From: Owenia fusiformis
Taxonomy: Eukaryota > Annelida > Polychaeta > Sabellida > Oweniidae
Direction of reading: 5' to 3'
NCBI GenBank assembly: GCA_903813345.2
Contig: CAIIXF020000004.1
Span: 16,479,513 to 16,543,512, forward strand
Length of the DNA stretch: 64,000 bases
The stretch's first letter is position 1. Every line of letters begins with the position of its first letter. The translations under genes were made by a program, and so were the position numbers. Below, in pieces: positions 3,128 through 50,992 of this stretch. The notes below the pieces were generated by a model. The model was not told the origin of the DNA, did no database searches, and was given only the letters and a program-made list of their open reading frames with translations.

Positions 3128-3720
3128 TTCGTTATAAATGTCTACCAACTCTTGTGGAAGAATGGCATATGGATTTTCAAGTTCGCCATTTTCTAGGATC
3201 CATCCATTTTCTGCTGGAACAAGGGATGACCTGCATGGAGGAAGGAGACTGATGTCTATCCCATCATAGTTGTTGATAGAGGCTTGAGGTTGAAATCTGT
3301 TCGCAAAATTTATGTATTGTACATGATTGATGTCTGTTTTTTCTTTTCACCGTACATGATGCACACAAATCTTTCGAGTTCTTGAAGATGCCTTTGGTCA
3401 AGAACTGTAGATTTTCCAAGTTCTTGAAAGATTGCATGCATGACCTCCCTCTTGATCAGCTGTTTCAGAAGGTTTATTTTTCCCTTTCTAATGAAGGCAC
3501 TGGTGGTATCACACCCTGTAAATAAAACAGTGGATAGATCAGGGTGGCTGTGATTGGATCACCCAAACCTGCTGCAACTGTCTTCACATAAATGAGGCGC
3601 CTCTTGTTTGAAACTCCAGTGTCAAACAGTACTTTGAGAAGTAGGTGTTTGATGTAATGTAGCAGGAGTATGGGTACATATGTGTCTGGAGATCTGACAA
3701 GTATAGTCTTGGCCTCAGCC
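3128..3720 (-). pseudogene. Inverted partial copy of the HEEADT/TGCDTTS-family gene (left palindrome arm)
   Basis: The minus strand reads RSPDTYVPILLLHYIKHLLL, then a degraded TGCDTTS region and the C-terminal LPPC/NGWILENGEL part. It mirrors 4063-4754. It has SPDTYV, one residue closer to the family's SPDTDV than the right arm, so the arms decayed independently. Confidence 0.65.
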
Positions 3721-3739
3721 TCTTGGTCTATTAAGGACC

Positions 3740-11100: not shown

Positions 11101-11419
11101 CTGCTGTCCATCCCTCTTGATTAATAGACGAACTGTTGCAGTTGAGCCATTTTATTTTCCCTTGAAGTACAAAAAAGTATATTGATGTATCTGCTAGCTT
11201 AATGACATAATCTGTTGAGTTTAATGCAAATAAGTGCGAAAATTCAGAATGTTCGCCAAAAGTAGAAATTTGACATCCAGTAGTTTTGGCACGTGGACAT
11301 CACAAAAAGGTTTTCCAGCCAGGTATATCGACTATACCGCAAACAACATTATGCATGCATGCTGTGTGATAGAAATAATATGCAATCCATTTTTTATGTA
11401 TTTTACATGCTTCTTTTTA

Positions 11420-12743
11420 CACGCCTAACCATCGCGTAAGCAGTCGTCACCGTACAGCGTCAAAAAATACAGTAGTACAGTTTTCTGTACGGTGACGAAA
11501 ATTAACTGAGTTGAAGCAAAAACTATAATGAGGGTTTTAAAAAGATTAATTAGATGAAAATAAATACGATTTTGGGTGTAATAAAAACAGCATTCTCTTA
11601 GGAATGGTTTTAACTTTCTAATTATGATAAAAGTTTTTCGAGCACTGCTCGGATTTTTTCTGAGTGAATCGGCCCACATAATCAACTCGAGAGAAAAAAG
11701 TTGTTTTTTCACTTTTCGTTTGGTTATTATTTTCCCTGTCGTCTGAGAGTATGGATTATTTTTATGAGAATATGTATTTGTTATCTACACATTTTAGAAC
11801 AGATGAATATTCGGCAAATAATCATTCAGTGTATTTATTTAAAAAAGATCAGAACTATACGGTGACGCATCAGCTTGATTTCGATATTTCTAGTTTTCAT
11901 GGAATTAACTATTTGAAAGTTGACGTAATGCTTTGGTATCATTTGAACTAAACCAGGCTTTTCTCATATGACTAACAAAGATAGCCTACACAGCCATCTT
12001 TACCCCATGCAAGATTTTGCAATTTTCATCCTAAAAAGTCACACGTGCAAGATGAGATTTACTTGTGACATCCCTTGTTTTAAAACATCAATAACATAGC
12101 AACAAGAGAGTTTTTGGTTTCATGATCTTTACCGTATCATACATTTCAACCTTCCATTAAGCGGTGGAAGATATCGTTGAACTGTAGCGCCCATGCACTA
12201 TATATGAACAAATGATCATACTCCAGAGTTTCCATTTCATACAATCTTAGTCTCATTTAGTTCATCAAAGCATAGCGTCACCGTACAGCTGCTGCGTCAC
12301 CGTACAAATTTGATCTTTTTTAAATATACATAATGAATGGTTGTTTGCTGAATCTTCGCCCGTTCTAAAATGTGTAGTCAACAAATACATATTCTCATAA
12401 AAATAATCCATACTCTCAGACGGCAGGGAAAATAATAACCAAACGAAATGTGAAAAAACAACCTTTTTTCACTTGGGTCGATTATGTGGGCCGATTCACT
12501 CAGAAAAAATCCGAACAGTGCTCGTAAAACGTTTATCATAATCAGAAAGTTAAAACCATTTCTAAGAGGATGCTGTTTTTATTTCACATGAAATCGTTTT
12601 AGTTTTCATCAAATTATGATTTTTAAAACCCTTGTCATAGTTTTTGCTTCAAAGCAGTTAATTTGCGTTACCGTACAGAAAACTGTACTCCGCTATTTTT
12701 TGACGCTGTACGGTGACGCCTGCTTACGCGATGGTAAGGCGTG
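11420..12743. mobile_element. Foldback element A: CACGCC...GGCGTG ends, ~460-bp arms, TSD TTTTA
   Basis: The arms, about 11420-11880 and 12280-12743, are inverted copies starting CACGCCT(A/T)ACCATCGCG; subterminal GTCACCGTACAG motifs recur. Copy 2 (near 34248) preserves the empty site CTTCTTTTTACAGG, so the insertion is delimited exactly, with TTTTA at 11415-11419 and 12744-12748. Because the flanking bases are complementary, a 3-bp TTT duplication with ACACGCC ends is an equal reading. No transposase inside. Confidence 0.85.
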
Positions 12744-12748
12744 TTTTA

Positions 12749-13594
12749 CAGGTTTATAATTATTTGGAGAAGTAGTTTGTTAGCTGAACATTTTGTCATC
12801 TTTCATTTCAATATATTTGGTTGTTCATCGAATCACATTTGATTTAATTGTAATAATTTGGCAAGAGGTCGTGATAACATAGAAATATGTATGTAAATAT
12901 CCGTTGCTTGATTTCTTTTGAACGGAAATGTAAAAAAACATTGACTTGAAGTGAATGCATCATAGCAGACACAAATAAAAAAACATATAAAAACATATTT
13001 TATATGTCTCTGATCATAGTAAATACTTTATGTTACAATGAGGTAGGTTGGAAATATTTTATTTTTCTATTTACAACCATCCATTCGTATCATCGCACAA
13101 TTTTATAGGTGCGGTGTAGGGGAAAGTTCATATAAGTTAACTGGTTATGAATTGAATCTGGTATTATAAATAGTTAGTCAACATATACATTGAAACTTGG
13201 AGTTAAGACGAACCTCGGTGCTCTCATCTTTGTCTTTTTTGTAATTTCATTGGTATTCTATTTATATTATAATTAATTTAATACTTTTATGCTCTAATTG
13301 TATAACGTGATAACAATGCTCAGAGCACAGCCACCATTAATTAGTAGAAGTTATTCAGGCCCGTAGCCAGGATTTGCCAAGGGGGGGGGGGGGGTCACAT
13401 TTGGAAAAATTCCAGAGGGGTTCACTTGTGACAATTTTGGTCCAAAAATAGTCAAAATCACTTAAACAGTGCTCAGAATGGTAAAAAACTGCATGATTTC
13501 GAAATTTTTTGGCCATCGAACCCCCTGGCTACGTGCCTGAATTGTAGTTTGAAGAAATTAGTTCACATTTTGAAGATGCAGTAAGAAATGAGAG
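12749..13594 (+). promoter_or_regulatory. Upstream region of SLC5 copy 1 (promoter not defined)
   Basis: Conserved with 34254-34897 in front of copy 2, so the promoter probably lies here if exon 1 is the first exon. No convincing TATA box or 5' UTR junction is evident. A MITE-like insert (13358-13544) with GCCCGTAGCCAGG and CCTGGCTACGTGCC ends and a poly-G run is present. Confidence 0.35.
13358..13544. mobile_element. CGTAGCCAGG-type MITE with poly-G tract
   Basis: Starts CAGGCCCGTAGCCAGGA and ends CCTGGCTACGTGCCTGA, an imperfect terminal inverted repeat, with a 14-15 G run next to the 5' end. A trimmed relative at 34687-34840 before copy 2 lacks the poly-G and much of the right terminus. 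Related ends occur at 14567-14745, 42340-42385, 42545-42690 and 60371-60510. Confidence 0.6.
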
Positions 13595-13854
13595 ATGGCG
13601 TCCACCTTCCACTGGGCGGATTATATCGTGTTTATTGCATTTATTGTAATATCAATGGCCATAGGAGTATTCTATTCGTGTACCGGTGGAAAGCAAAATA
13701 CAAATTCAGAATATCTGTTAGCAGACAGAAAGCTTCACTTTTTCCCAACGTCAGTGTCGTTAATGGTGTCATTCGCATCATGCATAACAATATTGGGGTT
13801 GACGGCAGAGATGTACACCGGAGGCTCTCAATTCTGGCTTTACTGTGTCGGTAA
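13588..13854 (+). other. Upstream ATG and overlapping alternate frame at SLC5 copy 1 start
   Basis: An ATG lies 7 nt before the main start, out of frame, and opens 88 codons across exon 1. The protein has no recognisable features and is probably not made, but the ATG could lower translation of the main frame. In copy 2 one extra AG pair puts the equivalent ATG (34889) in frame, adding MRE. Confidence 0.4.
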
Positions 13855-13930
13855 CTCGTTGGCTGCTCTCATTGCTGAGAGGATATTTGTCCCGTTGATG
13901 TACCCCCTACATCTAACAAGCACATACGAA
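13595..13930 (+). CDS. SLC5 copy 1, exon 1 (residues 1-112)
   Basis: Encodes MASTFHWADYIVFIAFIVIS through TSTYE, which covers the first membrane helices. WADYIVF at the N-terminus and TSTYE before the donor are typical of SMCT proteins. The donor is GAA|GTAAGT. The start is the ATG in a good context (AGAG-ATG-G). Another ATG 7 nt upstream at 13588 is out of frame and opens an 88-codon overlapping frame. Confidence 0.93.
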
Positions 13931-16900
13931 GTAAGTAGTTTTTTATTGATTCGCATAGTGAGAGGCCATGTTCAATTGTATCAAATTCGGTTTAACACAT
14001 CCTTTAAATTTATTGAATGTGAAAAGATCTTTTAAGCCAAACAATTAAACATTATACCTAATAAATAATTCGCATGTTTCGAATGGGTTGTCGCTTGTTG
14101 AATACTGTATACAGTATAACCATTTGACCCAAATTTGTAAATCATTTGCAAAACGGTAACTTCCACACACGAAAGATGTTCAACACTAGTGACGGCAATA
14201 TCAAATAAACATATTTACTATTTGTAAAAACTAAAGTAAACCAGCATCTTTTTGTTTACACCCCCCCCCCTTCATGAGTTTAGGGGTCAGAAGTTTACAT
14301 TAGATGGCATATCAAAGCAAGTTTGAATCTTCATCTTGTTCCTTAATTTCAATAGTCCACAATTTTATGATTTGTATGATCTTTTAAATCGCCAAATACA
14401 AACAGGCTTTGATGATTGATTCAAAAGGGGTCTCCTGGTTGACAAACTTATGGAGGGGAGTGTACTTATGATCCCCGCTACTCTTATTATAATATTACTT
14501 ATTTGATGTTTTTCGGATGGCGCTCTTGGCAGAAATAATCTGCACTTATTAAATCACTATCAGGGACGTAGTCAGCTTTCAGTCAGGGGGAATGGTGCGA
14601 ATTTTACAAAAATTGATGCAACTTCCTTCAAAATTGAGCTAGACGCTTCAAATAAAAAGCACTTTAAAGCTATTTTCTTTTGGCTATATTTTCATTGGTT
14701 TGGGGAGAGGGTGCGATCGCTACGCCTCCTGGCTACGCCTATGCATATTATGTACAATCTTGTTAAATTGCACTGTGTATTGTAATTGTAATGGTGCTAG
14801 CCTGAAATAAAAAATTATTTATAAAAAATCTCAAGCATACTATCCATAAAACTTGTATAACTTCTACTGCAGTATCTGTACAGACGCTTCAAATCACGAG
14901 TAGCCCGCCAATCATGTATGGTCATCGGCAGTGTTGGATTCGTGAGTACTCGAGACACACATATTGTGTGATATGTAATTGCCTAAACCAGAAAAAAAAT
15001 ATTTAAAATATAGTGGATCAATAATGGATTTTTAGAATGTATCCAGGGTTAATTAATGTCAATAATTGACTTCGTTATCTCATCAAGGGGCAATATTTAC
15101 TAGGGATAGGGATATAAAATGAGTATAACAGCCATCCAGTTTATCATACAGTGCGTCTCAAAAGCCACAATTGTACTCTTTTCAATGATATGTCATTTGG
15201 TCATATGTGATCATGAATCACTGCCAGGATTATCATTGTTTTTTCGCACATGGAAGAAAGGGCTAAGTTAAAAACTTTCTTCAATCAACTGATCCTTATT
15301 GTCCAATCAGGTTTGTGTAATTGGGGTTGAGGATTAAATTCTGGTCACAACACCATAAAGCCTCGGTCACATTTGCTCTACGGCAGCTGTAGCTTCACAG
15401 AATCGGTATAGAATATCTAAGGTACTGCTTATCACTATATTTCATGCTACACATTTCTCTCGATTTTGGGAAGCAACGGTCGTCGATTAAATGTGAATGA
15501 AGCAATGAATAACAAAAGTTTCACACATAGTTTTACTAAAGACAATTTTTTGTGTTCATTAGTATCCATAAAGGTTCAGTGAACGACAAACCAAAGGGTT
15601 TTTGTGCACATTCGCACCCACAATTCAAGGGTAATTCAGAAAAAGATATCCAGGGTATGTCAAGGCATGTAATTTTTCATGAGTCAACTTTAATAAGATG
15701 AAAGACAATGATTTTGAACACTTAATTGTGCCACTTCTTTTTCAATAGCTACTGGTCATATGCACTGATTTTTGCAATCTCTAAAGCTTGGTACAGAGCG
15801 GACTTTGGCCTATTGTGCAAAAGGAATGATTATTCAGTGGTCCGTGGTCTCATATGAAAAAATGACACATCATATTGGAAAGAAGAGACACTTGGCTCAA
15901 ATGGTAAACTAAATGAAATTGGTGTTGTCATCACTAATTTTATATTTTACAATATTTTGAGACGTACTGTATACTGACTGGGTTGGGATAAGACTTCAAA
16001 TCTGTGATTGTTGATAAAGGTGGCCATTGTGGGCGTCGTCATGTATGCTCCTGCAATAGCTCTCGAGGCAGGTAAGAGGGTAATCATTGTAATTTTGCTT
16101 TTTTCCTATTACATTTCGATATATAACACTCTCTAGACTAGTAGTAGTACTAGTAGCATTTATGCAGTATGTCACTCAACATTTCAGTATCTGGTCTTCC
16201 GACGTGGGTCTCTATTTTAATCATGGCAGCAGTAGCAACATTCTATACAACACTGGTATGTCAGGCTCTTTCCAAGCAAATATATCTTGCAAACTTGTTT
16301 TGTTGAACTACTTGTATATTGTATTCTATGTATAAAAATAATTTAAGTATGCTTTATTCATGTTTCCAGATAAAATATTAAAGGTATAGCAAATACTAAA
16401 GACGAGTTGCGAGTATCTTTCTTAGAACACAATTGTTTGTCTCAAATATGTTTGATATGTCTCTATTTTCCGAAAGTGCAAAGTTCTGACTTTTCTATTA
16501 TATAGTAGCCCGGACAGAATTGATCAAGGGTCACTTTTTTCTTTGGTGACTTTTTGAATTTTCAATATTATCAAAATCTGATTACATATTTGAAATCTAG
16601 AGTAAAATTCTGACATACAAAAAAATATTTAAGGAGATTCTCTTAATTTATTGACAATGGAATGGCCAAAAAACTTAAAGTCCTGCGACCTTACCAATAT
16701 ACTGTACAAACAATGTACGATCCTTTTTTAAGTACCGGTACAAGTCAATTTAAAACAAAAGGTTCAAATGCAGTCATTCCTCATTATCTCATACCAAAGC
16801 AGCAGTAAAGACTCCATAGGCCCATGACGTTTTTTAAATATTAACTTTCAACTGAACATTCAAATTCATAAAACGAGGCATTTTTGAACAAATATGAGAC

Positions 16901-19900
16901 AAATGGTGAATTATGTATTTGCATCACTCATACTATGAACGCCAATAATATCTGATTCAATAAGTTGAGAGATGTTCCTTAAATATGTTTTTTGTATGTC
17001 AGAATTTTACTCTAGTTTTAAAATATGTAACCAGATTTTGATAATACTGAAAATTAAAAAAGTTATTAAAGAAAAGATGATCCTTGAACAATTCTGCCCG
17101 GGCTACTATGATAATGCTAGGAATTTTCTGCACGTAGGGAGTTCTCCAGATTATTGTTGTTCTTTCAAGTGATATATAATAACTGATTGTCTACATGTAC
17201 GATTGCAGGGAGGTATTAAAGCCGTTATTTGGACAGACGTCTTCCAATTCTTGATCATAATAATAGGAATGATCATCACATTAGCAATGGTAAATCACTT
17301 ACTAAGCGTTTTGCCTATCTTTTTTTATATTAATTGCAATTACTTTTCGAAATATGATGCTACATTTCTGGTAATATTGGATTTCATGAAGGAATCTTCA
17401 TTTTGTCTTTTACATATTGATCAATAAAATATTAATGGTAAAAACGGCAACCCTGAATTTTACTCATATCTCATATCATTTTAGGAAATAAATTCTTGAT
17501 ATTTGGTACATTTGTACATCATATTCTATTTCCTACCAGCGCACTTTTCATGACTTTCAGACTGCATATTCACCCTATGCAGACAGAGCCTGTGGGAAAT
17601 ATTGGGTGCGGAGCAAATGAGCGTAGGGTGCGGAGCTAACGGTTATTTTTTAATTTAAATTTGGGATATTTCTGAAACTAAGCCGTTTTGGGACTTCAAA
17701 TATACCAAGATATGTGTATTTGACACCAAATATCAATACAATTGTGAAAATAGTAGCGCAATTCATTCTATAGCGACGCAGTGTGCCTTAAACCTTTCCC
17801 AGACCTATATATTTTGAAATTATCCTTTTAATACTGAGTCCCCAGCATTCATAAAAAATGGTGTTCAATGTGTACTATCTATACAAATTATTTTTGCATC
17901 TTGGAAGCCAGGCAGTATCTGTGTGATTTTATAAAAATTCGGAAATTTTTTCAGATATGAGCCCCCTCTAAATATTGGGTGCGGAGCAGCTCCATAAACG
18001 TAGCTCCGCACCAAATATTTAGAGGGGCTCATATCTGAAGAACATTTCCGAATATTTATAAAATCACACAGATACTGCCTGCTCATTTGCGCCGCACCCA
18101 ATATTTCCCACAGGCTCTGTCTGCATAGGGTGATATTATCATTTGGTTATTATCTATCACTATATTTTTGGCGTATCCCCAGATGTAAAAATCAAATGGG
18201 GACACGATATCCGAGCTACGGGGTTACCACTCATTATCTGTTCTCCTGCTGATAATGTGGACGTTGAAGTGGTCATTAAGCCATTCTAGAGCATCGTCGG
18301 ATGTATAAGTCATGGTATAGTCTTGTTGGAACCACTTAACAGCCTATCACCTAATATAAGGCCTGCAAGAAATCTCTGAGAATCGCAATGACACAGTTAC
18401 TTTTCCTTGGCATAAGTAAGGAAAATGACCCAAAATAATCCTTTGCATACGGAGTGGAGTCTCGTGAAATGGCTTCTCCGCTACGTTATTAGGTACTTGG
18501 TTCCCCCAGACTATATAGTTCTTAGAGTTAATCTGTCCATCAAGTTTGAAATGGGCTTCATCAAAATGAGGAAGTCTAGGGTTGTCGCTTTTACTACCAT
18601 GAACTAGTATCAAAAATAGCAGTAATTGTTGACTCATTTTCATAAGTTTCGGTAAATTAATTGTAAGTCATTGTTGTTTCAAGGGTTGCAGTCGAGTTGG
18701 AGGCTTCGCAAATATGTGGAACCTGTGTCAGAGAGGTGGAAGAATCCAGCCAATAGAGTGATTGATTATAATTTATATTACGGACGCTGGTTGACAGACA
18801 TTATAATAAAGGATAGGTATCGTAATGGGGAACTGAATTCAACAATGTTTTTCTCTTAAACCAATCATTGAAAACATTCTGTAAAAAAACATGGTATTTT
18901 ATTTAATGTTGACTGATTGACAACAATTTAATGCAAAAATTATTTAGAAATATTTTATATAGCTGTTTTTGTTAACATTTTTTGTTTTTTTAGTGCAATT
19001 GTTTTTGCTCCTTTCTACCAATTCTTGAGAATGAAATAAAATGTCTTTCCGAACCTTGTTGGAACAAAATAGCATATACAACATGTTTTTAGACCTCTCA
19101 ATATTAATGTTATACAAAGGAATTTTTGGTTGATTTTAAAAAAGTATTCAAAAAATTAAAACGAATCCCCCCAAAATAGATAAAAAATCAAGAAAACCTT
19201 TTATTTCATTAATAAGATACTTTTTTAAAATCAACCAAAATTTCCTTTGTACAATTACAATATTGAGAGACCTAAATATGATGTGTTTATGTCGTTTTGT
19301 TCCAATGAGGTTCGGAAAGATGTTTCATTTCACTCTGGAAACATGATACCAAGAACAAACTTAGTGTTTGATGTGTTTTTAAAACGATATAGATGAAAGT
19401 ATGTATATCTATTTCAAATTATATTGTTACCATTCAAAAGATGGCCATTAAATTGACAATTTGTAAGATTTTCAGAAATTTTGATGACTGGTTTAGAGAA
19501 ACGTGTGTTCAAAAAGTTCGCCATATCGATACCCATTCTTTGAACTTATGATATACCAAATTAAAGATGATTAAGTTCCCTATCCATTGGTATATAATAT
19601 GACATATTTTCATCAAGAAAATCAATATTTATTTATGAAATACGAGTGTCCCATTTTTGGACCACCCTGTATGTATTTATTATATGTACAAGTTGGTCCA
19701 AAATAAATGGGACACTCGTATTTCAAAAATAAATATTGATATTATAAATGAAAACATATCATATTATATACCATTGGATAGGGAATTTACTTATCTTTAA
19801 TTTGGTATATCATAATTTCAAATTTATTATAATGCCTGTCAGCCAGCGTCCACAATACAAATGACGTCATTTTCGTTTCAAAAAGGTTTTTCAAAAACTT

Positions 19901-22900
19901 GTAAAATCCAAGTTTTCTGTCAAGATAAACAGAAGTCCAATATCTCCATTTATCCCACGATTAATGTGTTATCTGTACAATAACAGCTATTGATATTTCT
20001 GATATTATTAAAATCCGTGTGATATTTTCCAGAAAATGTTTATCAAACTCATATGCGTGTGATATCGTTTATCTCACGCATATCCGTGTGATATCACATT
20101 TGCATTTCGCGCCACAATATTGTTGGAAATTAGGTCAGATAATTTATTCTCTTTTGGGAAAATAGGTCTGCCAGTGTCCTGGAAATTGGATCGTAATCAT
20201 GGGATAAACCCAATATCACATAATTTCTCGTGATATAATTTTATCGCTTCTCTCACTCGTGTTGATATTTGATATCAACTCGGCGATAAAAATGATATCA
20301 CTCAAAATGATGTGATATTCTGTATCAATCTAATCAATTAAAGCCCTCAATCTTGGCATAAACTTGTTGATATTATCATTGATATGCTTTTGAAATGATA
20401 AGTTCCACTTCTCAACAATTCTGTCCTTAAGTGACTGAATGTAAGGGGTTCATGGTGCACCAACTTTGTTAGTTCTCCTCATACGTGGTAGTCGCAGAAG
20501 TTAGCATCGGGTGATCTGGTTGGAGGGGCAGTTATTAAGGGGATGAATCAAAACATCCTGCACAGAGGACCTATGCCTGATATCATATTCTGATCATCAC
20601 ATTTTCGAACAAGATGGGGCTCCAAGCCATAGATCACACAAGACAGTAAAACATTTAAAAGATAATGTGCCTCAATTCATAGCCCTAATAACTGCCCCCC
20701 CCCCCAGATCACCTGATGCGACTACCACGTATGGGGAGAACCAACAAAATTGATGTATCATGAACTCCTTACATCTATTCAGAATTGTGAAAAGTGGAAT
20801 TCTTTGTCTCAACAGCATGTCAATGACGCTACTGATCAGTTTAGACCAATATTGAGGGCTATAATTGATCAAAATGGAGAACATCGGTTTTTGGTGACAA
20901 AAAAATTGTTTTTTTGCAAGTTTTTGAAAACCTGTTTGAAACGAAAATGACGTCATTTGTATTATGGACGCTGGTTGACACGTAATACAATGAATTTGAA
21001 CTTATGATATACCAAATTAAAGAAAAGTAAATTCCCTATCCACTGATATATATATATATACTATGACATGTTTTCGTCAATAAAATCAATGTTTATTTTT
21101 GAAATATTAGTGTCCCATTTTTTGGACCACCCTGTATGTTTGAGTTTGTGTTCCAGCTTTGACTTGAACCCATTGACGAGACATACCTTCTGGGGCCTCA
21201 CTATTGGTGTTGGGGCAACCTGTACACATCTGTATGGAGTAAGCCAACCTGGAGTGCAGCGTTTTTCAGCAACACGATCACTCAAAGATGCCAGACTGTA
21301 AGCAGAATTTCTTAAAAATAATTATGTACATTAAGATATATTACCTTGAGCATCCAAAAAATAGCTAAGGCTAAACATAACACAATCTCATACATATAGT
21401 CATTTATTTCATTCGGGCATCCATAATATAGTTAAGGCTAAACCTAATATAATCTCATGCATTGTCAATTATTCCATTCGGCCATTCATAAAATAGTTAC
21501 CCTGAACCTAATACAATCTCGTTTCATTGTCAATTATTCAATTTGGGCATCCATAAAATAGCTCATGCTTTACCTAATACAATCTCGTTACATTGTCAAT
21601 TATTCAATTTGGGCATCCGTAATATATCTTATGTTTTACCTAATACAATCTCGTTACATTGTCAATTATTCCATCAGGCATCCATAATATAGCTTACGTT
21701 TTACCTAATACAATCTCGTTACATTGTCAATTATTCAATTTGGGCATCCGTAATATAGCTTATGTTTTACCTAATACAATCTCGTTACATTGTCAATTAT
21801 TCCATCGGGCATCCATAATATAACTTATGCTAAACCTAATACAATCTCATGCATTGTCAATTATTCAATTTGGGCATCCGTAATATAGCTTATGCTTAAC
21901 CTAATACAATCTCGTTACATTGTCAATTATTCCATTCGGGCATACATACCATGGCTTATGTTTTACCTAATACAATCTCGTTACATTGTCAATCATTCCA
22001 TCGGGCATTCATAATGTAACTTATGCTAAACCTAATACAATCTCATGCATTGTCAATTATTCAATTTGGGCATCCGTAATATAGCTTATGTTTTACCAAA
22101 TACAATCTCGTTACATTGTCAATTATTCCATCGGGCATCCATAATATAACTTATGCTTAACCTAATACAATCTCATGCATTGTCAATTATTCAATTTGGG
22201 CATCCGTAATATAGCTTATGTTTTACCTAATACAATCTCGTTACATTGTCAATTATTCCATCGGGCATCCATAATATAGCTTATGTTTTACCTAATACAA
22301 TCTCGTTACATTGTCAATCATTCCATCGGGCATTCATAATATAACTTATGCTAAACCTAATACAATCTCATGCATTGTCAATTATTCAATTTGGGCATCC
22401 GTAATATAGCTTATGTTTTACCTAATACAATCTCGTTACATTGTCAATTATTCCATCAGGCATCCATAATATAACTTATGCTTAACCTAATACAATCTCA
22501 TGCATTGTCAATTATTCAATTTGGGCATCCGTAATATAGCTTATGTTTTACCTAATACAATCTCGTTACATTGTCAATTATTCCATCGGGCATCCATAAT
22601 ATAGCTTATGTTTTACTAATACAATCTCATGCATTGTCAATTATTCAATTTGGGCATCCGTAATATAGCTTATGTTTTACCTAATACAATCTCGTTACAT
22701 TGTCAATTATTCCATCGGGCATCCATAATATAACTTATGCTTAACCTAATACAATCTCGTTACATTGTCAATTATTCCATCGGACATTCATAATATAACT
22801 TATGCTAAACCTAATACAATCTCATGCATTGTCAATTATTCAATTTGGGCATCCGTAATATAGCTTATGTTTTACCTAATACAATCTCGTTACATTGTCA

Positions 22901-25900
22901 ATTATTCCATCGGGCATCCATAATATAACTTATGCTTAACCTAATACAATCTCATGCATTGTCAATTATTCAATTTGGGCATCCGTAATATAGCTTATGT
23001 TTTACCTAATACAATCTCGTTACATTGTCAATTATTCCATCGGGCATCCATAATATAACTTATGCTTAACATAATACAATCTCATGCATTGTCAATTATT
23101 CAATTTGGGCATCCGTAATATAGCTTATGTTTTACCTAATACAATCTCGTTACATTGTCAATTATTCCATCGGGCATCTATAATATAGCTTATCTTTTAC
23201 CTAATACAATCTCATGCATTGTCAATTATTCAATTTGGGCATCCGTAATATAGCTTATGTTTTACCTAATACAATCTCGTTACATTGTCAATTATTCCAT
23301 CGGGCATCCATAATATAACTTATGCTTAACCTAATACAATCTCATGCATTGTCAATTATTCAATTTGGGCATCCGTAATATAGCTTATGTTTTACCTAAT
23401 ACAATCTCGTTACATTGTCAATTATTCCATCGGGCATCCATAATATAACTTATGCTTAACCTAATACAATCTCATGCATTGTCAATTATTCAATTTGGGC
23501 ATCCGTAATATAGCTTATGTTTTACCTAATACAATCTCGTTACATTGTCAATTATTCCATCGGGCATCCATAATATAACTTATGCTTAACATAATACAAT
23601 CTCATGCATTGTCAATTATTCAATTTGGGCATCCGTAATATAGCTTATGTTTTACCTAATACAATCTCGTTACATTGTCAATTATTCCATCGGGCATCTA
23701 TAATATAGCTTATCTTTTACCTAATACAATCTCATGCATTGTCAATTATTCAATTTGGGCATCCGTAATATAGCTTATGTTTTACCTAATACAATCTCGT
23801 TACATTGTCAATTATTCCATCGGGCATCCATAATATAACTTATGCTTAACCTAATACAATCTCATGCATTGTCAATTATTCAATTTGGGCATCCGTAATA
23901 TAGCTTATGTTTTACCTAATACAATCTCGTTACATTGTCAATTATTCCATCGGGCATCCATAATATAACTTATGCTTAACCTAATACAATCTCATGCATT
24001 GTCAATTATTCAATTTGGGCATCCGTAATATAGCTTATGTTTTACCTAATACAATCTCGTTACATTGTCAATTATTCCATCGGGCATCCATAATATAACT
24101 TATGCTTAACCTAATACAATCTCATGCATTGTCAATTTTTCAATTTGGGCATCCGTAATATAGCTTATGTTTTACCTAATACAATCTCGTTACATTGTCA
24201 ATTATTCCATCGGGCATCTATAATATAGCTTATGTTTTACCTAATACAATCTCGTTACATTGTCAATTATTCCATCGGGCATCTATAATATAGCTTATGT
24301 TTTACCTAATACAATATCATGCATTGTCAATTATTTAATTTGGGCATCCGTAATATAGCTTATGTTTTAACTTATATAATGTCGTCACATTGTACATTGT
24401 TCCATTCGAGTATTTATAATGTAGCTTATGCTTAGAGGTCGATTGCCCGGAAATATTAACACACATGTTAAACTTATATACATTTTTTTGTGGCTTGGTT
24501 GAATGGCTATAAATCTCAAGTTCCGATGTGCCTCAACAAGAAGACGATAGAGTGACAAGGATTATGTCAAGCGGAGTTTATATTTTTTGTGCAAATTTTC
24601 TTCTTGGATAAAAAAATTTCATTTTAATTCGATTAACTTACGATAGGTGGCAAAAGGTCTAAAGGTAGGTCATGTGACACAAAACAACGAATCATATGAC
24701 ACGAAAACAATGATTCATTCACCAGATGGCGTAGTTAAATGAGGTCAATTTTGTGACAAACGAAAACCGTTTAGCTTAGCTTAAATTTTGCTCACGCAGT
24801 CGAACGAAACTGAAACTTCTTTCGTCGATATCTAGGTGAGTGATTTTTTTCAAGCTCCGGTATTTTGACAAAAGTAAGTTCAGGTCGTAGCCATTCCTCG
24901 GGGCAGGTTTGAGGCATCAACAATTTATTTTGAAGTTTTTCTAAGGAATTATTCCCGATTTCCGGCTACTGCATCTCATCTTAACTCAATACAATCTCGT
25001 TACATTGTCCATTGTTCCATTCGGGCATCAATAATAGCTTATGCTTAACCTAATACAATATATCAATGCAACCGACCGATCATTTGTTCTTACAGGACCA
25101 TGCTAACAGTTATTCCCGCCGTTTGTGTGATTTATGCGCTGACAGCTCTTGTAGGGCTCACGGTGTATGCCTATTACTCTCACATTCAATGTGACCCTAT
25201 GGTTATTGGAGCTGTTACTAATATAAATCAGGTAGGTTTACTGCAAGGACTCGATGCGCTGAAATTTGAGGATTCATATCATTAAACTTTGTCATTAAAG
25301 CATGCATATGAAATATAGTTTCAATTTTTAGATATTCCCCTACTTTGTAATGGACGTACTTGCAGTTCCAGGCGTACCAGGGATATTTCTCGCAGCTATG
25401 TTTAGCGCAGCATTGAGGTGATTTTTAACATTTTAAAATTATTAGTAAAGATCTTGAACTTTCGCGTCTGTGGAGTAAAGATAGGATTAACGATGTTGTA
25501 ATTCTGGATGCTTTGTTCTTCTTTCAATTTCTAGTCATACGCAAATACACTTTTGGAGAGATTTTAGGGACAGATTTTTCATGGTTCTTCACAATCATGT
25601 TTCTTCTGAAAATAAACCTGAAATATATTTATCAGGATATATTTACAATACGCCGTACGTTTTATAAAGACAAAAATTAATTCAGTGTTAAACTGCTAAG
25701 CAGACGCATTAGCGCCACTGGGGGTCATCTAGCAACGAAGGCACGATGTCTTCGTTTCAGAATATTTTCCAAGCAATAATTTGGATCATTCAATATTCTT
25801 TGGCCTTCATCCGAGGTGATTCTCAAGAATTCAACAACACTTTTACGACCAGAACTTTGGACACATCCAGGGGACCGTTCAGGTGAAATGTTTTGGGAAC

Positions 25901-29915: not shown

Positions 29916-29928
29916 GCGAGCCTAAAGG

Positions 29929-30150
29929 ACATGGGGCACAAACATTTTGATACAATTTTTAAAGTAGACTCTGAAGTGTGATTAAGGACTGACAATAGAT
30001 GACGAAGAACATGGGACACATACTTTTTGATACAAGTTTTAAAGGAGACTCTGAAGTGTCATTTAGGGCTTACAATAGATGGCGAAGAACATGGGACACA
30101 TACATTATGATACAATTTTGAAAGGAGACTCTATTTAGAGTGTCATTGTG
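29929..30150 (+). repeat. 80-bp tandem repeat (2.8 copies) just after the SLC5 stop codon
   Basis: Units start at 29929, 30009 and 30089 with ACATGGG(G/A)CACA and share TTTTGATACAA, GGAGACTCTGAAGTG and CAATAGATG-CGAAGA. They begin 13 bp after the TGA, so they are likely part of the 3' UTR if transcription continues. Confidence 0.8.
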
Positions 30151-30504
30151 GAGCAGTTGGGGGGGGGGGCATTGTTGAAATGCATTGTCACGAAAATTTA
30201 CAAGGAGCTGCAACTGGGAGGTAAACTAATCAAGATGAAACATAGGGAGGTTAGGTCACACGTTTATAGGAGAACATTCACGCGAGCGTGTAATTAATAT
30301 TTTGACCCCAGAGTATACTGTTTATCTCTCAATTCATTAATCTCAGTCCCAGGGACCTATTTACAATTATTTTAGTAAACACTACAAATGGGAGAAATAA
30401 TCCATAGAAGACCATAATTCTACACGTTCACGTACGTAACTTAACCTCCCTATTAACATTGAATGTCACAGCAGACAAAAAAGTTTGTTGGCAATTTTGA
30501 ATGT

Positions 30505-31840
30505 TATAAAGGAGGAGGGACAGTATCGCAACAGATTTCGGACAGTCATATGTTGGAATTTAGCTATTTTCTGAGGATTTAAACAAGTGCATATGTTAGG
30601 TCAATGCATTACCTCAAGGAAAAGCACTCATAGAGATGATAAAATAATTTCGACTTTGAGACGGGGAAGATGCAACCCACCACATGTTTTTTCTGAAGTG
30701 TTGTTCTGTTTTTCAACCTATTTCACCCCTGCTTTTTTAATTTTTCTTGCATCAATATGTTGCGTTTTGACACACAGTAGGCCCTTTTAAAGGCTTCCTA
30801 GTCAACTCGTACCCAAGACAACTCGTACCCAAGACAACTCGTACCCAAGACAACTCGTACCCAAGCTTATTTTCAGTATTATGGGTGCATATTAGGAATG
30901 AAATTGTGTTTGTAATGCTTTCATGTTATAAGGTGAATCAAATAAGGCTCAATATTTTTTTGAATTTAGACAACATTTTTTCTCAATGGATCAGTAAAGC
31001 ATTTTGTTTATTAAATAAAAGAAGTGCTTGAAGCGCTTGTTCTCAAAATTTTTTTGTCAAACATATATATAAATAAATATAATTACAACGTTAGATCTGA
31101 CACTTGTTCCAAACACTCATAAACATACAATATTTTGAAAAATGATTATAAACATATGTCTCTTCACTTGAACATCCTGAATCTGTGACCAATATAAAAT
31201 AATAGTCAATATAAATTGACACTCAGCTCAAAATGTCATAAAATTAAATCAATTTCTTCCGAAAATTCTTCTTCAAACTTTAAACTATTCTGAACAGTAT
31301 GTTACAATTATAATATGTATAGCTATTCACATTCCCAGTCCAATGCTTGATTCAAAACAAAATATATACTTGGGTACGAGTTGTCTTGGGTACGAGTTGT
31401 CTTGGGTACGAGTTGACCAGTTACCTTTTAAAGGAATAAGTGATTCCTTCGGGGGTTTTAAAGGTATCCATTATGGTTGACCAAAATTAGCTGAAAGCTG
31501 ATCGCATGAGTTTCTGCAATGGGAAAATAATATGGGAAATATTGTTTTCCACTTTATCTAAAAGGGGTAACTGTGTGTCAAATCACAACATATTGTTGCA
31601 AGAAAAATTAAAAAAGCAGGGGTGAAAGGGGTTGAAAATCAGGAAAACATTTCAGACGAAACATGTGGGTGGGTTGTTTGCATCTTTCCTGTCTCAAAGT
31701 CGAAATTATATTATCATCTATAGGAGTGCTTTTCCTGTAGGTTATGCATTGGTCTTACATATGCACCTGTTTAAATCCTCAGGAAATCCAACATTATGAC
31801 TGTCCGAAATCTTGCGATACTTTCTCTCCTCCTATTACAC
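30505..31840. mobile_element. Foldback element downstream of SLC5 copy 1, with CAACTCGTACCCAAGA repeats
   Basis: The left arm ~30505-30860 is mirrored by ~31372-31835 (GATTTCGGACAG, AAAGCACT, TTTTTAATTTTTCTTGCA). At the inner ends the 16-bp unit CAACTCGTACCCAAGA is repeated four times (30803-30866), facing three inverted copies (31371-31415). The loop is about 500 bp and AT-rich. The outer ends are blurred, so no target duplication can be given. Confidence 0.75.
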
Positions 31841-32559
31841 ATTGAATTACTTTCCTGTCATGTTACTGGTAGATGAGAAAAAGTCAATAAATTATCACTT
31901 CACTAACCTCATATATCTTAACTATATGTAAGGTTTATTCCCTTGGCTAGGGGGATTTCAGATGTATCATGTTGAAATTGATTAGTTTTTCTTTGACATC
32001 TACTAAAAATTTACTGAGAATTTTCAACAGGAAGTGTGAAGTTGTCTGGTTTAGATTATCACAAATACATTTCGGCAACCCGTTCAAAATTAGGTGCATG
32101 AAGATGAGCTTGCAAGAGAAGTCCAGACCTAATAAAGACGGTTAAAAGGAATTTCTAAATAACGAGGCATGGCATTTAGTTTTGAAGTTGATAAGATAGA
32201 AGCGGGGCTTCCACTACCTCTTACTATTATTTAAATCTTGAAATTGGCTGACCAATTGTATGACCTGGTGAAAAGTTATTCCAAAGAGCAACTCCATTGA
32301 AAATTGTTGATTTCTTAGCCAAAGCACTTGTTTGGAGGGGAATCTTATAACCCCTGTGACTCCTTAATGATCGCACTTGAATGTCGTTCTCAAAAGATCT
32401 GACAAGATTACAAATGAAAGGAGGAAAGCTGTTACATCTTGCTATATATATTTTTATCTTACTGTTCTGTCAGATGATGCAAAATGTAGCACATATTTAT
32501 TATTTATTCACTTACATGGTTGTGTTATGTGGGTGGAAGTAGCATCAGAGGAATGAATC
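31841..32559. other. Intergenic, nothing recognised
   Basis: AT-rich sequence without coding frames or clear repeats, between the foldback element and the retroelement fragment of copy 2. Confidence 0.5.
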
Positions 32560-33901
32560 AGAGGAACTTGATCAGAACATGTTCTGGTATCTATTAAATA
32601 GGAGCCGAAAGAATTGTAATCCCAAATCTAATTTAATCAGAAACGATAATGGAGATATCCTCTCGGATCCAAGCGAAATATGCATGGAATGGAAAAGTTA
32701 TTTTGAAGAGGAACTTGATCAGAACATGTTCTGGTATCTATTAAATAGGAGCCGAAAGAATTGTAATCCCAAATCTAATTTAATCAGAAACGATAATGGA
32801 GATATCCTCTCGGATCCAAGAGAAATATGCATGGAATGGAAAAGTTATTTTGAAAAGTTAGCCACTCCGTCAAATCCTGGTAGTTATGATGACGATTTTT
32901 ATCAACGAGTGAACAATGAAATATTAGAAATGAAAACAATTTCAAATTTACAAGAAAACGTGTTTTTAAACGACCCCATTACAAAGAGTGAAATTATTAC
33001 AGCAATACATCAGTTAAATCTAAATAAAGCTGCTGGAGATATCTTTATTTCGTACTGGAATACTAATTCCACTTTTGAAAGGTGGCAAACGCGATCCTTT
33101 AGAAAAAGATGACCACCGTGGGATTACGCTTATGACGTCACTCAGAAAAACGTTTGATATCTTCTTGTTAAACAGAAGTAAGCCGGAAATTCTTAAACAT
33201 ATTCCCCAACTGCAGGGCGCATCTCTGAAATCATGCTCCTCTGTCCACTCTTACAGGTTAGCACAAGAGGCAATAACCCATAACGTGGAATCAGGACGTA
33301 ACGTCTACGTCACAACAATCGATATCCGTAAAGCTTTTGACGGTGTATGGATTAACGGGCTGTTCTACAAGTTATATAACATTGGAATCTGTGGCAAATT
33401 ATGGTGCATCCTTTTTGATTCCTACAATACATATAAATGCAAAGTACGTATAGGGGAACAGTTTTCTGATACTTTTGACGTTCGACGGGGGTCCACCAGG
33501 GCGGAATTTATAGTATGCTTCTCTACCAGCTTTACAGTGCTGACGTCATAGAGGAACTTAGTGGTATGCATATCGGTGCCAAGATTAATGATATTGATGT
33601 GACATGTCCGGCGTATGCAGACGATATGACAATCATGGCCACATATATTAATAGTATGAATATTCTTTTAAACGCGGTATACAAGCATAGCCTCAAGTGG
33701 AGATATGATATACACCCTGGAAAATGCAAAACCCTGACATTTGGAAAGAAAAGAGGAAATCATACAAATGACGTCATGATCAATGATATTCCAGTACAAA
33801 CAACAAATAGCACAATTTACCTCGGCCTGCCAATTACAAATAATTCTACGTCGGTTCCCAATACGTTACTGATAGTATTAACAAGGGATTACGTATACTA
33901 G
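32560..33901 (+). pseudogene. Non-LTR retrotransposon pol fragment, copy 2 (frameshifted, internally duplicated)
   Basis: Three overlapping frames: 32579-33112 (linker FWYLLNRSRKN to LNLNKAAGD), 33075-33551 (GGKRDPLEKDDHRGIT, motif A TTIDIRKAFDGVW) and 33515-33901 (CPAYADDMTIMA, RT catalytic YADD at residues 34-37). The motif B region (RRG-HQGG) is split by a frameshift near 33490. About 148 bp at the start are tandemly duplicated, so FWYLLNRSRKNCNPKSN occurs twice. A chunk of RT between LNKAAG and the KGGKRDP motif is missing in both copies. Better preserved than copy 1. The clade cannot be named safely. Confidence 0.82.
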
Positions 33902-34897
33902 CTTTAACTCTCCAATTTTTGAAGTGACTGCTGTCCATCTCCCTTGATTAATACAAATGTAGACGAACTGTTGCAATTGAGCCATTATATTTTCCTGTGA
34001 AGTACAAAAAAGTATATTAATGTATCTGCTAGTTGATGACCTAATCTGCTGAGTTTAATGCAAATAAGTGCGAAAATTCAGAATGGTCGCCAAAAGTAGA
34101 AATTTGACATCTAGCAGTTTTGGCACGTGGACATCACAAAAAGGTTTTCCAGCCAGGTATATCGACTATACCGCAAACAACATCATGCATGTTGTGTGAT
34201 AGAAATAACATGCAATCCATTTTTATGTATTTTTACGCTTCTTTTTACAGGTTTATAATTATTTGGAGAAGTAGTTTGTTAGCTGAACATTTTGTCATCT
34301 TTCATTTCAATATATTTGGTTGTTCATCGAATCACATTTGATTTAATTGTAATAATTTGGCAAGAGATCGTAATAACATAGAAATATGTATGTTAATATC
34401 AGTTGCTTGTTTTCTTTTGAACGGAAATGTAAAAAAACATTGACTTGAAGTGAATGCATCATAGCAGACACAAATAAAAAACATATAAAACATATTTTAT
34501 ATGTCTCCGTCATAGTAAATACTTTATGTTACAACGAGGTAAGTTGGAAATATTTTATTTTTCTATTTACAACCATCCATTCGTATCATCGGCACAATTG
34601 TATAGGTGCGGTGTAGGGTAAAGTTAAGTTAACTGGTTATGAATTGAATCTGGTATTATAAATAGTTAGTCAACTCTATACATTGAAATGGGTCCGAAGC
34701 CAGGATTTGCCAAGGGAGTCACTTTTTGAAAAATTCCAGATGGTTCACTTGTGACAATTTTGGTCCAAAAATAGCCAAAATCACTTAAAAAGTGCTCAGA
34801 ATGGTGAAAACTGCATGATATTGAGAGAATTTTTGGCCTGAATTGTAGTTTGAAGAAATTAGTTCGCATTTTGAAGAAGCAGTAAGAAATGAGAGAG

Positions 34898-35233
34898 ATG
34901 GCGTCCACCTTCCACTGGGCGGATTATATCGTGTTTATTGCATTTATTGTAGTATCAATGGCCATAGGAGTATTCTATTCGTGTACCGGTGGAAAGCAAA
35001 ATACAAATTCAGAATATCTGTTAGCAGACAGAAAGCTTCACTTTTTCCCAACGTCAGTGTCGTTAATGGTGTCATTCGCATCATGCATAACAATATTGGG
35101 GTTGACGGCAGAGATGTACACCGGAGGCTCTCAATTCTGGCTTTACTGTGTCGGTAACTCGTTGGCTGCTCTCATTGCTGAGAGGATATTTGTCCCGTTG
35201 ATGTACCCCCTACATCTAACAAGCACATACGAA
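34898..35233 (+). CDS. SLC5 copy 2, exon 1
   Basis: Nearly identical to copy 1 exon 1, with donor GAA|GTAAGT. The ATG at 34889 is in frame and would add MRE in front of MASTF. Identity with copy 1 continues about 160 bp into intron 1 and stops near 35393. Confidence 0.9.
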
Positions 35234-38200
35234 GTAAGTAGTTTTTTGTTGATTCGCATACTAAGAGGCCATGTTCAATTGTATCAAATTCGGTTTAACA
35301 CATCCTTTAAATTTATTGAATGTGAAATGATTCCTTTAAAGATCTTTTAAGCCAAACAATTAAACATTATACCTAATAGATAATTCGCATGTTTCTGTCA
35401 TGTTATGTTTTCTACAGTCTCATGTAAAATTAGAATGCATCATTTTTATGGCTTTTCACATATATTCTTATCATTTTTATATTTGTTGAGACGAATGACA
35501 TGTATATTTTATTTGAATGCACCTTTCTTCATTTAAATGGTCTACCGAAACACCTGGCTTTAGCTATATTGTATCTTAAGCTATCTTTGAGAGTTAACAT
35601 CAGCTGCCCCTAGTCAGATCGTCGAGTTGGCCGAGAGGGCTTATGCGCCAGCACGTTCAGGCTAGGCGATTGGGCGCCGTAACCACGAGGTTGCGAGTTC
35701 GAGACGCGGTGTGCTCCGTGCGTTTATTCATTTATGTAAGCTTGATAAAATGAATCTTACAGTGAAGATGATACAAGTATACCGACGGCGACAATGTGTG
35801 TTATATAGTTAAAATATATGTGGCAAGGATGTAGATTCATGTAGAAGACATTTGGCTTTCAACCAGGTCAACCAGGTAAGTATATCGACTGCTTAGTCAA
35901 AAGGTAAATACGTTTGGTGCTCGGAGTGAGTCACTAGAGACCTTAAGTTATACGGACGACCTGTACGTGTACCTGTAAATACACGTACACGTACAGGTTT
36001 TTTTAAATGTTCCTTTTGTGCGCCTAAAACAAGTCCTTAGTCACTCGTCGACGGGTACGTGTACGAAACAAGGAATTAGTGGGTATCAGGTGATGAAAGT
36101 ATGATATTTTAAATCGGCCTACACACATATCCATAGTGATTCTGTATGGGGGAAGTGTAATTTGCTTAAGGCATACAGATATACCAATGCGTGTTAGGTG
36201 TTTGGGTGAGGTAAAGATTTATTTATTTATTTCCAATTGTTGCTATGTAGATATTTATCTCTTGATAATTGTCTCTTGATAATTTGAGGAGATTTGTTTG
36301 TGTGTTAATCTGCTTGATTGCTTGTTTGTTTTATGTAGTGGTTCTTACTATAAAGCACGGTGGTCTGTCTACCTACCAACATGTCGTTCAGCCTGTTAGC
36401 CTGTCGTTCTGACTGCCAGCCTATCGGTCTGCCAGCCTGTCCGTCTGTCACCCTGTCGGTCTGCCAGCCTGCTGGCATATCGTTCTGTCTGCCAGGCTGT
36501 TGCTCTGTCTGCCAGCCTGCCAACATTCCGGTCTGTCAGCCTGCCAGCATGTCGTTCTGTCTGCCAGTATGTCAGCCTGCCGGTCTGCCAACATGTCGGC
36601 CTGTAAAATTGCCGGTCTGCCAGCCTGCCGGCATTCCGGTCTGTCAGACTCCCAGCCTGTCGTTCTGTCTGCCAGCCTGTCGGACTGCCAGCCTGTCGGT
36701 CTGCCAACCTGCCGGTCTGTCTGTCTGTCTGTCCGTCCGTCCGTCCGTCCGTCCGTCCGTCCGTCCGTCCGTCCGTTCGTCCGTCTGTCCACCCGCCCGC
36801 CCGCCTGTCTGTCTACAGTAGTTCGGCCTACTTTTTTCGTTCATGAAGTATTATCTTCAATTTTGAAAAATTCAAAGATGAAATAAATAGTACATAGTTA
36901 TGTAATACTGATCTCACTCACAATCTTTCGCGTACAGGTTCACAACAAGACGACAAAAACGCCCGGCGCTATTGAATTTACACGTCAACGGGATTATAAA
37001 ACAAGTCAGACGTGTCGAATGGAGCATAAAGTTACATGATTTGTTGCACGCGCATTATGTTTCACGTACAGGTACAGGTACATGTTACTATTTGGTGCAA
37101 TCTTAAGGTCTCTACTATCACACCCGGTGATCGTGAATATGGGACGGAGGGGGGGGAGCAGGCAATTTCTGCTAGGAAATTCAACAAATCTGGAAGATTT
37201 ATTTTTTCAAGAAAAAGTTTACTATTGAATTGCTAAATGGATAGGCACACGGTATGGTAGAATATGTTAGGTTTTCTGGATTTTTTTCTGAAACGATACG
37301 CATCTAAGGTATGAGATCTATTAAAAAAGGCGCAAGGCCATCAACAGGCACAAATCAACGTTTTTGCTATAAATCAAGCAACAATGGTCTGGACGACCTG
37401 TAATAAATACTTGTAAGTGATGTTATCATAACTAAATTAATGTCATTGCTGAATTTATAAAATAAGTTTCCATATGTGAAATAAAAAATAATCGAAAATA
37501 ATGAATTTGGGACGGAGGGGGGGGGGAGGGGACGGAGGGGGGGAGCAATATGTATATAAGACATGATTAGAGATGTTTCGCGACTTTAAGTCCTTTTACT
37601 CCAAATGTCCCCATTTTCTCAGTCTCCAGGGGTATATCATCCAGTTTCTTACTTAGTTAATGAGTTCATTTTTCAAATACAAGAATTCGTGTGAAGTTGT
37701 TTCACTTTATAGAATTATTACTCCCCCCCTCCGTCCCCTCCCCCCCTCCGTCCCATTTTAATTATTTTTGATTATTTTTTATTTTACGTATGGAAACTTA
37801 TTTTATAAATTCAGCAATGACATTAATTTAGTTATGATAACATCACTTACAAGTATTTATTACAGGTCGTGTAGTCCATTGTTGCTTGATTTATAGCAAA
37901 AACTTTGACTTTTGCACGTTGGTTGCGTTGCGCCTTTTTTAATAGATCTTATATCTTAAAAGAGTATCGGTTGAAAAATAATCCTAGAATACCTAACATA
38001 TTTTATCATACCGTGCGCTTATTCAATTTGCAATTCAATCGTAAACTCTGTCTTGAAAAAATAATTTTACCAGATTTGTTGAATTTTCTAGCGGAAATTG
38101 CCTGCTCCCCCCCTCCGTCCCATTTTTACGATCACCGGGTGTGACTATTGCTATTCGCTGAACTTCAGTGGTGCAATAGTGAAGTCCATGTTCTAAGTTA

Positions 38201-50940: not shown

Positions 50941-50992
50941 GTAAGCAGAATTTCTGAAAAATAATTTATGTACATTAATATATATTACCTCG

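Follow-up and report, generated by a model that had tools for sequence, protein, structure and literature searches.

Three young CAC-ended foldback MITE families with 5-bp target duplications in Owenia fusiformis, probably moved by one transposase lineage

Do three foldback elements lying within one 64,000-nucleotide stretch of the Owenia fusiformis genome (the window) owe their mobility to the same transposase? The original prediction gave the elements, here FB1, FB2 and FB3 (Table 1), CAC...GTG ends, 5-bp duplications and a common gene-free design, and held that a duplicated locus supplies the empty site of two of them. On re-check, the coordinates, ends and duplications of all three were exact. 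The empty sites of FB1 and FB3 were located, both within the duplicated part of the window, and the shared design was borne out by a common arm layout and by a Pfam scan in which the two longest ORFs of each family consensus had no match. For FB3, the joined 60-bp flanks align with the empty locus over 120 bp at 98.3%; no empty site for FB2 was found within the window. A whole-window scan with criteria modelled on FB1–FB3 (CAC...GTG, 14-bp TIR with at most three mismatches, exact 5-bp TSD, spacing 80–4000 bp) returned exactly these three elements and nothing else, and seven register-shifted controls gave 0, 0, 0, 0, 0, 0 and 1 matches.

Table 1. Positions of the FB elements and associated sites in the window, and of long FB-ended pairs elsewhere in the genome
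Feature	Position	Strand	Remarks
FB1, foldback element	11420..12743	.	1324-bp internal-deletion copy; family consensus 1486 bp; ends CACGCCTWACCATCGCG
FB1 target-site duplication (TSD), TTTTA	left 11415..11419, right 12744..12748	.	
FB1 left arm	11420..11875	+	88% complementary to FB1 right arm
FB1 right arm	12287..12743	-	
FB1 empty site, single TTTTA	34243..34247	.	paralogous copy of locus
FB2, internal-deletion copy	17571..18132	.	562 bp; near-palindromic family, consensus 849 bp; ends CACCCTATGCAGACAGAG
FB2 TSD, ATATT	left 17566..17570, right 18133..18137	.	
FB3, foldback element	37119..38143	.	1025-bp copy; family consensus 1020 bp; ends CACRCCCGGTGATCGTGAA
FB3 TSD, ACTAT	left 37114..37118, right 38144..38148	.	
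FB3 empty site	55968..55972	.	paralogous locus copy; position inferred from ungapped alignment of joined flanks
Long FB1-ended pair	C2:15143000-15146645		3646 bp; coordinates only
Long FB1-ended pair	C1:27029342-27032391		3050 bp; coordinates only
Long FB1-ended pair	C3:20167235-20169512		2278 bp; coordinates only
Long FB3-ended pair	C1:53875241-53877722		2482 bp; coordinates only

A search of the 498-Mb genome revealed that each element is the single window copy of a multi-copy family. About 40 best candidates were scored in this search, a depth at which rarer members would stay hidden, and 60 copies, 20 per family, were fetched from the best matches. The divergence of these copies from their consensus is 0.12–0.47% for FB2, 0.10–1.67% for FB3 and 0.54–2.22% for FB1; for the copies read, the three families are young. 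Counted genome-wide, there are 212 FB1 and 653 FB3 ends. TIRs, uniform length, a TSD, lack of coding capacity and multiple copies, the features of a non-autonomous cut-and-paste element, are all present, and FB1–FB3 are new non-autonomous families (foldback MITEs) of an already known kind.

All 60 fetched copies have CAC...GTG ends, and none of their 40-bp flanks are identical. The table of insertion sites called for by the original prediction, compiled from these copies, gave a TSD of exactly 5 bp in 57 of 60 across all three families (6 bp in two, 4 bp in one), versus 1.34 of 60 for random flank pairing. The same prediction had cautioned that a 3-bp duplication with one more TIR base would be equally valid; this fails because the outer TSD bases are complementary at only 22 of the 60 five-bp sites, which settles the length as 5 bp. 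Descent from EnSpm/CACTA elements, in which the TSD would be 3 bp and the TIR one base longer, requires exactly those complementary bases; it is refuted as to TSD length and highly improbable as a whole. It does have in its favour that PMC12730594 gives EnSpm CAC...GTG ends, like those of the FB families, and a 3-bp TSD, and that PF02992 transposases occur in the genome, nine of them equal in score and with an open frame of 608 codons. Six of the 16 PF02992 matches were read, comprising four loci of two multi-copy families and two single loci (L126 and L127). The two families, delimited at their right ends only, terminate in 5'-CCCCGGCGAAATG and 5'-CCTTGTCGAAAT, not CAC, and the two single loci showed no convincing element ends. 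An FB2-like right end (2/14 mismatches) does lie about 110 bp before a 397-codon ORF in L126; it was rejected as a boundary of that ORF, being in the wrong orientation to enclose it and having no left partner within 2.5 kb. A weak FB2-like stretch (9418-9468, E 2.7e-4) was also seen in L125, outside the PF02992 element.

The three families have a layout in common, with a family-specific motif repeated at the outer and inner end of each arm. There are 8, 6 and 6 motif copies at these positions (about half of them independent, since the arms are inverted duplicates), where shuffles give at most 0.01. The TIRs of FB1 and FB3 agree at 11 of 17 positions, the best among the variants compared and a figure without a control, and FB2 agrees with FB1 at 7 and with FB3 at 6 of 17, CAC counted. 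An unbiased word test of the three arm sets found no common GC-rich word beyond chance. Although all three motifs contain RCGGWG, this word was picked post hoc, and it was rejected as a shared subterminal motif given the chance level of the unbiased test.

An AT-rich palindromic target, TSNY-ATWAT-RNSA, is common to the families and clear in two of the three family pairs. The observed correlation of target profiles was reached by 14 of 2000 random controls for FB3–FB1 and by 11 of 2000 for FB3–FB2; for FB1–FB2 it was reached by 204 of 2000, and these two profiles are not clearly alike. At the five-bp sites of the 60 copies, GC content is 18.7% in the TSDs versus 31% in the flanks. Three unrelated transposases, whose CAC ends and 5-bp TSDs match only by chance, would fit the differences in arms, motifs and most TIR positions as well as the FB1–FB2 target comparison. 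Such a coincidence is nevertheless unlikely: the layout is shared, as are the target profiles in two of three pairs, and the combination of CAC ends with a 5-bp TSD is, to our knowledge, uncommon among eukaryotic superfamilies. FB1–FB3 are probably three separate non-autonomous foldback MITE families, served in trans by a DDE transposase of 5-bp stagger, with one lineage for all.

Longer or coding relatives were sought through the ends. A pattern search for FB2 TIRs with a differing interior gave 47 matches, of which 27 were fetched (7 + 3 + 17), and 14 further loci brought the set to 41. Sixteen of the 41 loci had a right end that could be accepted, the elements being 218–1309 bp long. The 5-bp TSD is exact in six of these (L064, L069, L105, L109, L115, L117) and has one mismatch in five (L104, L107, L110, L111, L113); two or three mismatches occur in the remaining five (L065, L068, L095, L108, L118). 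Weaker or unsuited matches were dropped in L062, L070, L112 and L116, as was a second match in each of L068 and L107. A 5554-bp pair in L062 was rejected: its right end belongs to a separate FB2 copy, and the flanks of the pair are not alike. A Pfam scan of 26 ORFs from the 41 loci, each 110 aa or longer, showed a single transposase domain, a 140-aa piggyBac-type fragment (PF13843) in L066. It was rejected as an FB2 transposase; the ~1.5-kb stretch that holds it (2441-3932) is read as a probable separate insertion, because L061 and L062 lack it. At least four FB-ended pairs of 2.3–3.6 kb are known by coordinates only. No autonomous element or transposase with FB ends was found in the 41 loci, the flanks of 40 of 147 hAT matches or the two PF02992 families. 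Four TIR strings (12, 11, 12 and 11 letters) used as literature queries returned no transposon paper, as judged by titles and the opening of abstracts.

Mobilization by hAT5, a hAT group defined by its 5-bp TSD (PMC12730594, PMC9004415), is unlikely. The TSD length is right in 57 of 60 FB copies and hAT transposases abound in the genome (147 PF05699 matches). Against this, the 3' flanks of 40 of the 147 contained no FB end at up to 3/14 mismatches within the 0.8–1.5 kb covered, beyond which ends would escape; at 4/14 mismatches, the same flanks gave 11 and 9 FB-like ends versus 23.1 and 11.2 in shuffled flanks. Right ends were also delimited for six multi-copy hAT families, and none of these starts with CAC. 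Three of them end 5'-TAGAGGCTG, TAGGGCTG or CAGAGGCG, which resemble typical hAT ends, and the other three 5'-GATGGGACGG, CTAGAGCTC or ATGTGATG.

A non-autonomous Transib or RAG-like (RAGL) origin is possible, if doubtful. The CAC termini and 5-bp TSD reported for these elements in PMC7204232 are both present in the FB families, and the occasional 4- and 6-bp FB TSDs agree with a length that is 'almost always 5 bp'. The opening CACACCC of FB3 is also that of the AanRAGL TIR element CACACCCAAACCT (PMC9435367), possibly by chance. Membership is weakened because the FB TSDs are AT-rich, opposite to the GC bias that PMC8289069 reports for ProtoRAG, Transib and RAG, and because the genome has no detectable Transib/RAG1 match, a result without a positive control. 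The PF12940 profile matched neither this genome nor any control genome, so the lack of a match carries little weight. An HzTransib C-terminal segment had no match in the genome and a joined query of three such motifs had one (E 5.4), both without a positive control.

Taken together, these data suggest a model of FB mobility. In it, a transposase of the DDE type, provided in trans, would bind to the CAC terminus and, we infer, to the family-specific motif repeated beneath it, and would cut both element ends. The ends would be joined with a 5-bp stagger to a short palindromic target whose 5-bp core is AT-rich, and gap filling would produce the 5-bp duplication. One CAC-recognizing enzyme lineage, for which the CMC/Transib branch or hAT5 is the likeliest placement, may serve all three families. 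The single transposase group of the original prediction thus draws support from the 5-bp TSDs, the CAC...GTG ends, the arm layout and, in two of three pairs, the targets. It is put forward as plausible and not as established because the search for autonomous partners with the same ends, also proposed there, identified none for any of the three within the loci examined.

A more speculative version, which we hold to be improbable, is that at least three foldback families were recently driven by an undescribed transposase lineage, either close to the CMC/Transib branch or divergent within hAT, which recognizes CAC termini and makes 5-bp staggered cuts at AT-rich palindromes (TSNY-ATWAT-RNSA). If true, RAG/Transib would have a CAC-type, 5-bp relative whose target bias runs the other way. 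We know of few eukaryotic transposase groups that make 5-bp duplications, and it was from one such group that V(D)J recombination arose. Three young CAC-ended families with hundreds of intact ends and a measured target logo provide a direct route to the moving enzyme, and allow one to ask whether CAC and 5 bp always mean RAG-like chemistry.

Among known systems, Foldback/Galileo-type elements, members of the P superfamily with 7–8-bp TSDs, have similar long inverted arms and internal repeats but differ in TSD length and termini, an exact 7- or 8-bp TSD occurring in 0 of 60 FB copies. EnSpm/CACTA (CMC) elements are alike in their CAC...GTG termini and also carry subterminal repeats, as the FB families do, whereas the FB TSD is 5 bp, not 2–4, and the two PF02992 families delimited here have other right ends. 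With hAT5, compared by TSD only, the 5-bp duplication is shared and this genome is rich in hAT transposases, but the six delimited multi-copy hAT families lack CAC ends. Transib/RAGL elements have GC-biased rather than AT-rich TSDs and no Transib/RAG1 homolog was detected here (without a positive control), but these elements and their non-autonomous derivatives resemble the FB families in both the 5'-CAC termini and the 5-bp TSD.

The original prediction placed three foldback elements, FB1, FB2 and FB3, at 11420-12743, 17571-18132 and 37119-38143 of the window, and these positions proved exact, with CAC...GTG ends and 5-bp duplications present at all three. When the window was scanned by criteria derived from FB1-FB3 themselves, these three were the sole matches, and seven register-shifted controls yielded one match in total. 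FB1 and FB3 each have an empty site with a single copy of the target-site duplication (TSD) in the window's duplicated part, as had been claimed for two elements, and no empty site for FB2 was found there. In the window, FB1 and FB2 are both represented by a version with an internal deletion. Among the matches listed are diverged duplications within the window, for the most part 80-95% identical, and insertions, FB1 and FB3 among them, show up as gaps in these. A long tandem repeat array (21339-24434 and 50983-52488) is common to two paralogous loci, the second copy adjoining a stretch of N. The large inverted repeat at 1509-6312 (arms of ~1.7 and ~0.5 kb, 93-95% identical; internal ORFs of up to 174 codons) has outer ends that start AATAGTGGGCTGTATAGC, without CAC, and is an element distinct from FB1-FB3.

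Each of the three elements is a member of a multi-copy family. In the genome (498,259,871 bases, 525 contigs), FB1, FB2 and FB3 each have at least 40 matches, with only the ~40 best candidates scored. Exact words of the terminal inverted repeats (TIRs), counted for two families, mark 212 FB1 ends and 653 FB3 ends, against 0 for reversed-pattern controls. Twenty copies per family, fetched from the best-matching places and thus biased to young, full-length copies, gave consensus lengths of 1486 bp (FB1), 849 bp (FB2) and 1020 bp (FB3), with divergences from consensus of 0.54-2.22, 0.12-0.47 and 0.10-1.67%, respectively. For each consensus, neither of the two longest ORFs had a Pfam match at E 0.1. 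Pairing 100 listed ends per family produced 31 pairs for FB1, 24 of them 1324-1494 bp long, and 35 for FB3, 27 of them 988-1040 bp long. Four oversized pairs among the ends listed (3646, 3050 and 2278 bp for FB1; 2482 bp for FB3) could represent autonomous elements, or else copies that carry nested insertions. FB3 ends also bound a second size class, of ~1.47 kb, with CACGCCC at both termini.

Positions of duplicated segments in the window and of the larger FB3-ended size class (C1, a contig of the genome)
Feature	Position	Partner	Scope
Duplicated pair	window 9230-14080	32553-35395	among matches listed
Duplicated pair	parts of 14413-24434	parts of 42383-52488	among matches listed
Duplicated pair	window 36619-38648	55457-56472	among matches listed
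~1.47-kb FB3-ended class	C1:3457365-3458837		
~1.47-kb FB3-ended class	C1:9818441-9819907		
~1.47-kb FB3-ended class	C1:16701933-16703400		

Tabulating 20 or more insertion sites per element, as the original prediction had proposed, returned a TSD of exactly 5 bp adjoining the ends in 57 of the 60 fetched copies (19/20 in each family), with 6 bp in two (loci L021 and L045) and 4 bp in one (L016). Randomly paired flanks matched in a mean of 1.34 of 60 cases and shifted right flanks in 0-2, and no two copies had an identical 40-bp flank. A 3-bp duplication with one extra TIR base had been held equally valid; this reading fails at 38 of the 60 five-bp sites (57 fetched and three window copies), because the outer TSD bases are complementary in only 22 (FB1 6/20, FB2 8/20, FB3 8/20). 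The observation on FB1-FB3 is confirmed and strengthened.

Target preference was profiled on both strands of 60 empty sites (the fetched and three window copies, minus the three non-5-bp copies). The sites form a palindrome in which T, C/G, any base and a pyrimidine precede the 5-bp AT-rich core ATWAT and are mirrored beyond it, with a GC content of 18.7% in the TSD, 40.5% in the five bases on either side and 31% in the flanks. At 2, 3, 5 and 6 positions from the centre, the information reached 0.093, 0.23, 0.12 and 0.158 bits, above the 0.087 that marks the 95% level of maxima for random flank windows, and the values 0.23 and 0.158 also exceeded the top random value of 0.141. The profile of FB3 correlated with those of FB1 (0.47; 14/2000 controls as high) and FB2 (0.44; 11/2000), while likeness between FB1 and FB2 was not clear (0.25; 204/2000). 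These correlations lend modest support to a common enzyme group.

Each family consists of two long inverted arms. A motif specific to the family lies near the outer end of every arm and recurs at its inner end. Allowing one mismatch, CGTCACCGTACAG has 8 copies in FB1, GGGTGCGGAGC 6 in FB2 and GGGACGGAGGGGGGG 6 in FB3, about half of them independent because the arms are inverted duplicates; for these motifs, chosen from repeats already seen, shuffled controls gave at most 0.01. They are putative transposase-binding sites. No GC-rich word was common to the three arm sets beyond chance. Over the first 17 TIR positions, agreement was 11 for FB1-FB3, 7 for FB1-FB2 and 6 for FB2-FB3, taken as the best of variants with CAC counted in and no control.

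The FB2 TIR is part of a diverse group: its 14 bp occur with a different interior at 47 places, and a related 24-mer has 204 matches with up to three mismatches. A right end was accepted for 16 of 41 loci read from the 47 places and 100 listed 24-mer matches, at a distance of 218-1309 bp from the left end in every case; the 5-bp TSD was exact in six of these and had one mismatch in five. The 41 loci have 26 ORFs of 110 aa or more, in which the sole transposase domain was a piggyBac-type fragment (PF13843) in L066 that looks like a separate insertion. L061, L062 and L066 have FB2-like left ends within a larger diverged repeat of >4 kb, of which L061 and L062 are without the fragment.

The genome contains 147 matches to the hAT profile PF05699. 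For 40 of these the 3' flank was searched (20 of ~1.5 kb, 20 of ~0.8 kb); no FB end was found with up to three mismatches of 14, and ends with four were rarer than in shuffled flanks. For six multi-copy hAT families the right end could be inferred from the point where copies cease being alike, and none has a CAC terminus; three have hAT-like termini and three have others. A two-copy hAT family (L073, L079) ends 5'-GATGGGACGG, its right end at ~265 and ~263 of the downstream strand. The word ATGGGACGG is common to this end and to FB3 consensus positions 21-29, beneath the terminus, possibly by chance. Six of 16 matches to the CACTA-like profile PF02992 were read. CAC was absent at the right ends of a two-copy family and of a nine-copy family (two copies read), whose equal-scoring copies have an open 608-codon frame, and the ends of two single loci were not clear. 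This nine-copy PF02992/DUF1258 family (L122, L123 and seven further places) has the right end 5'-CCCCGGCGAAATG and looks recently active, judging from the 99.9% identity of L122 and L123. Searches for Transib/RAG1, run without a positive control, gave no match to PF12940 or to a 52-aa HzTransib segment (via PDB entry 6pqn, found with query motifs), and one match at E 5.4 to a joined query of three HzTransib-type motifs.

The proposal that one transposase group moves FB1, FB2 and FB3 gains from target profiles alike in two of three pairs, whereas the enzyme was not found in our searches; we regard it as plausible and fairly probable, if unproven. The three are apparently new foldback MITE families and are modestly unusual, non-autonomous families with 5-bp TSDs being of an already known kind. 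Such TSDs are described for the hAT group hAT5 (PMC12730594; PMC9004415), and an assignment to CACTA has been made for MITEs that end in CAC...GTG and have TSDs of 2 bp (PMC6004678). Protostome RAG-like (RAGL) elements are described as starting with CAC and having 5-bp TSDs (PMC7204232), and the TSDs of ProtoRAG, Transib and RAG as GC-biased (PMC8289069). Set against these accounts, the FB families are like Transib/RAGL in termini and TSD length but unlike them in TSD composition (18.7% GC versus GC-biased), and it is because of this difference that they are not filed as Transib.
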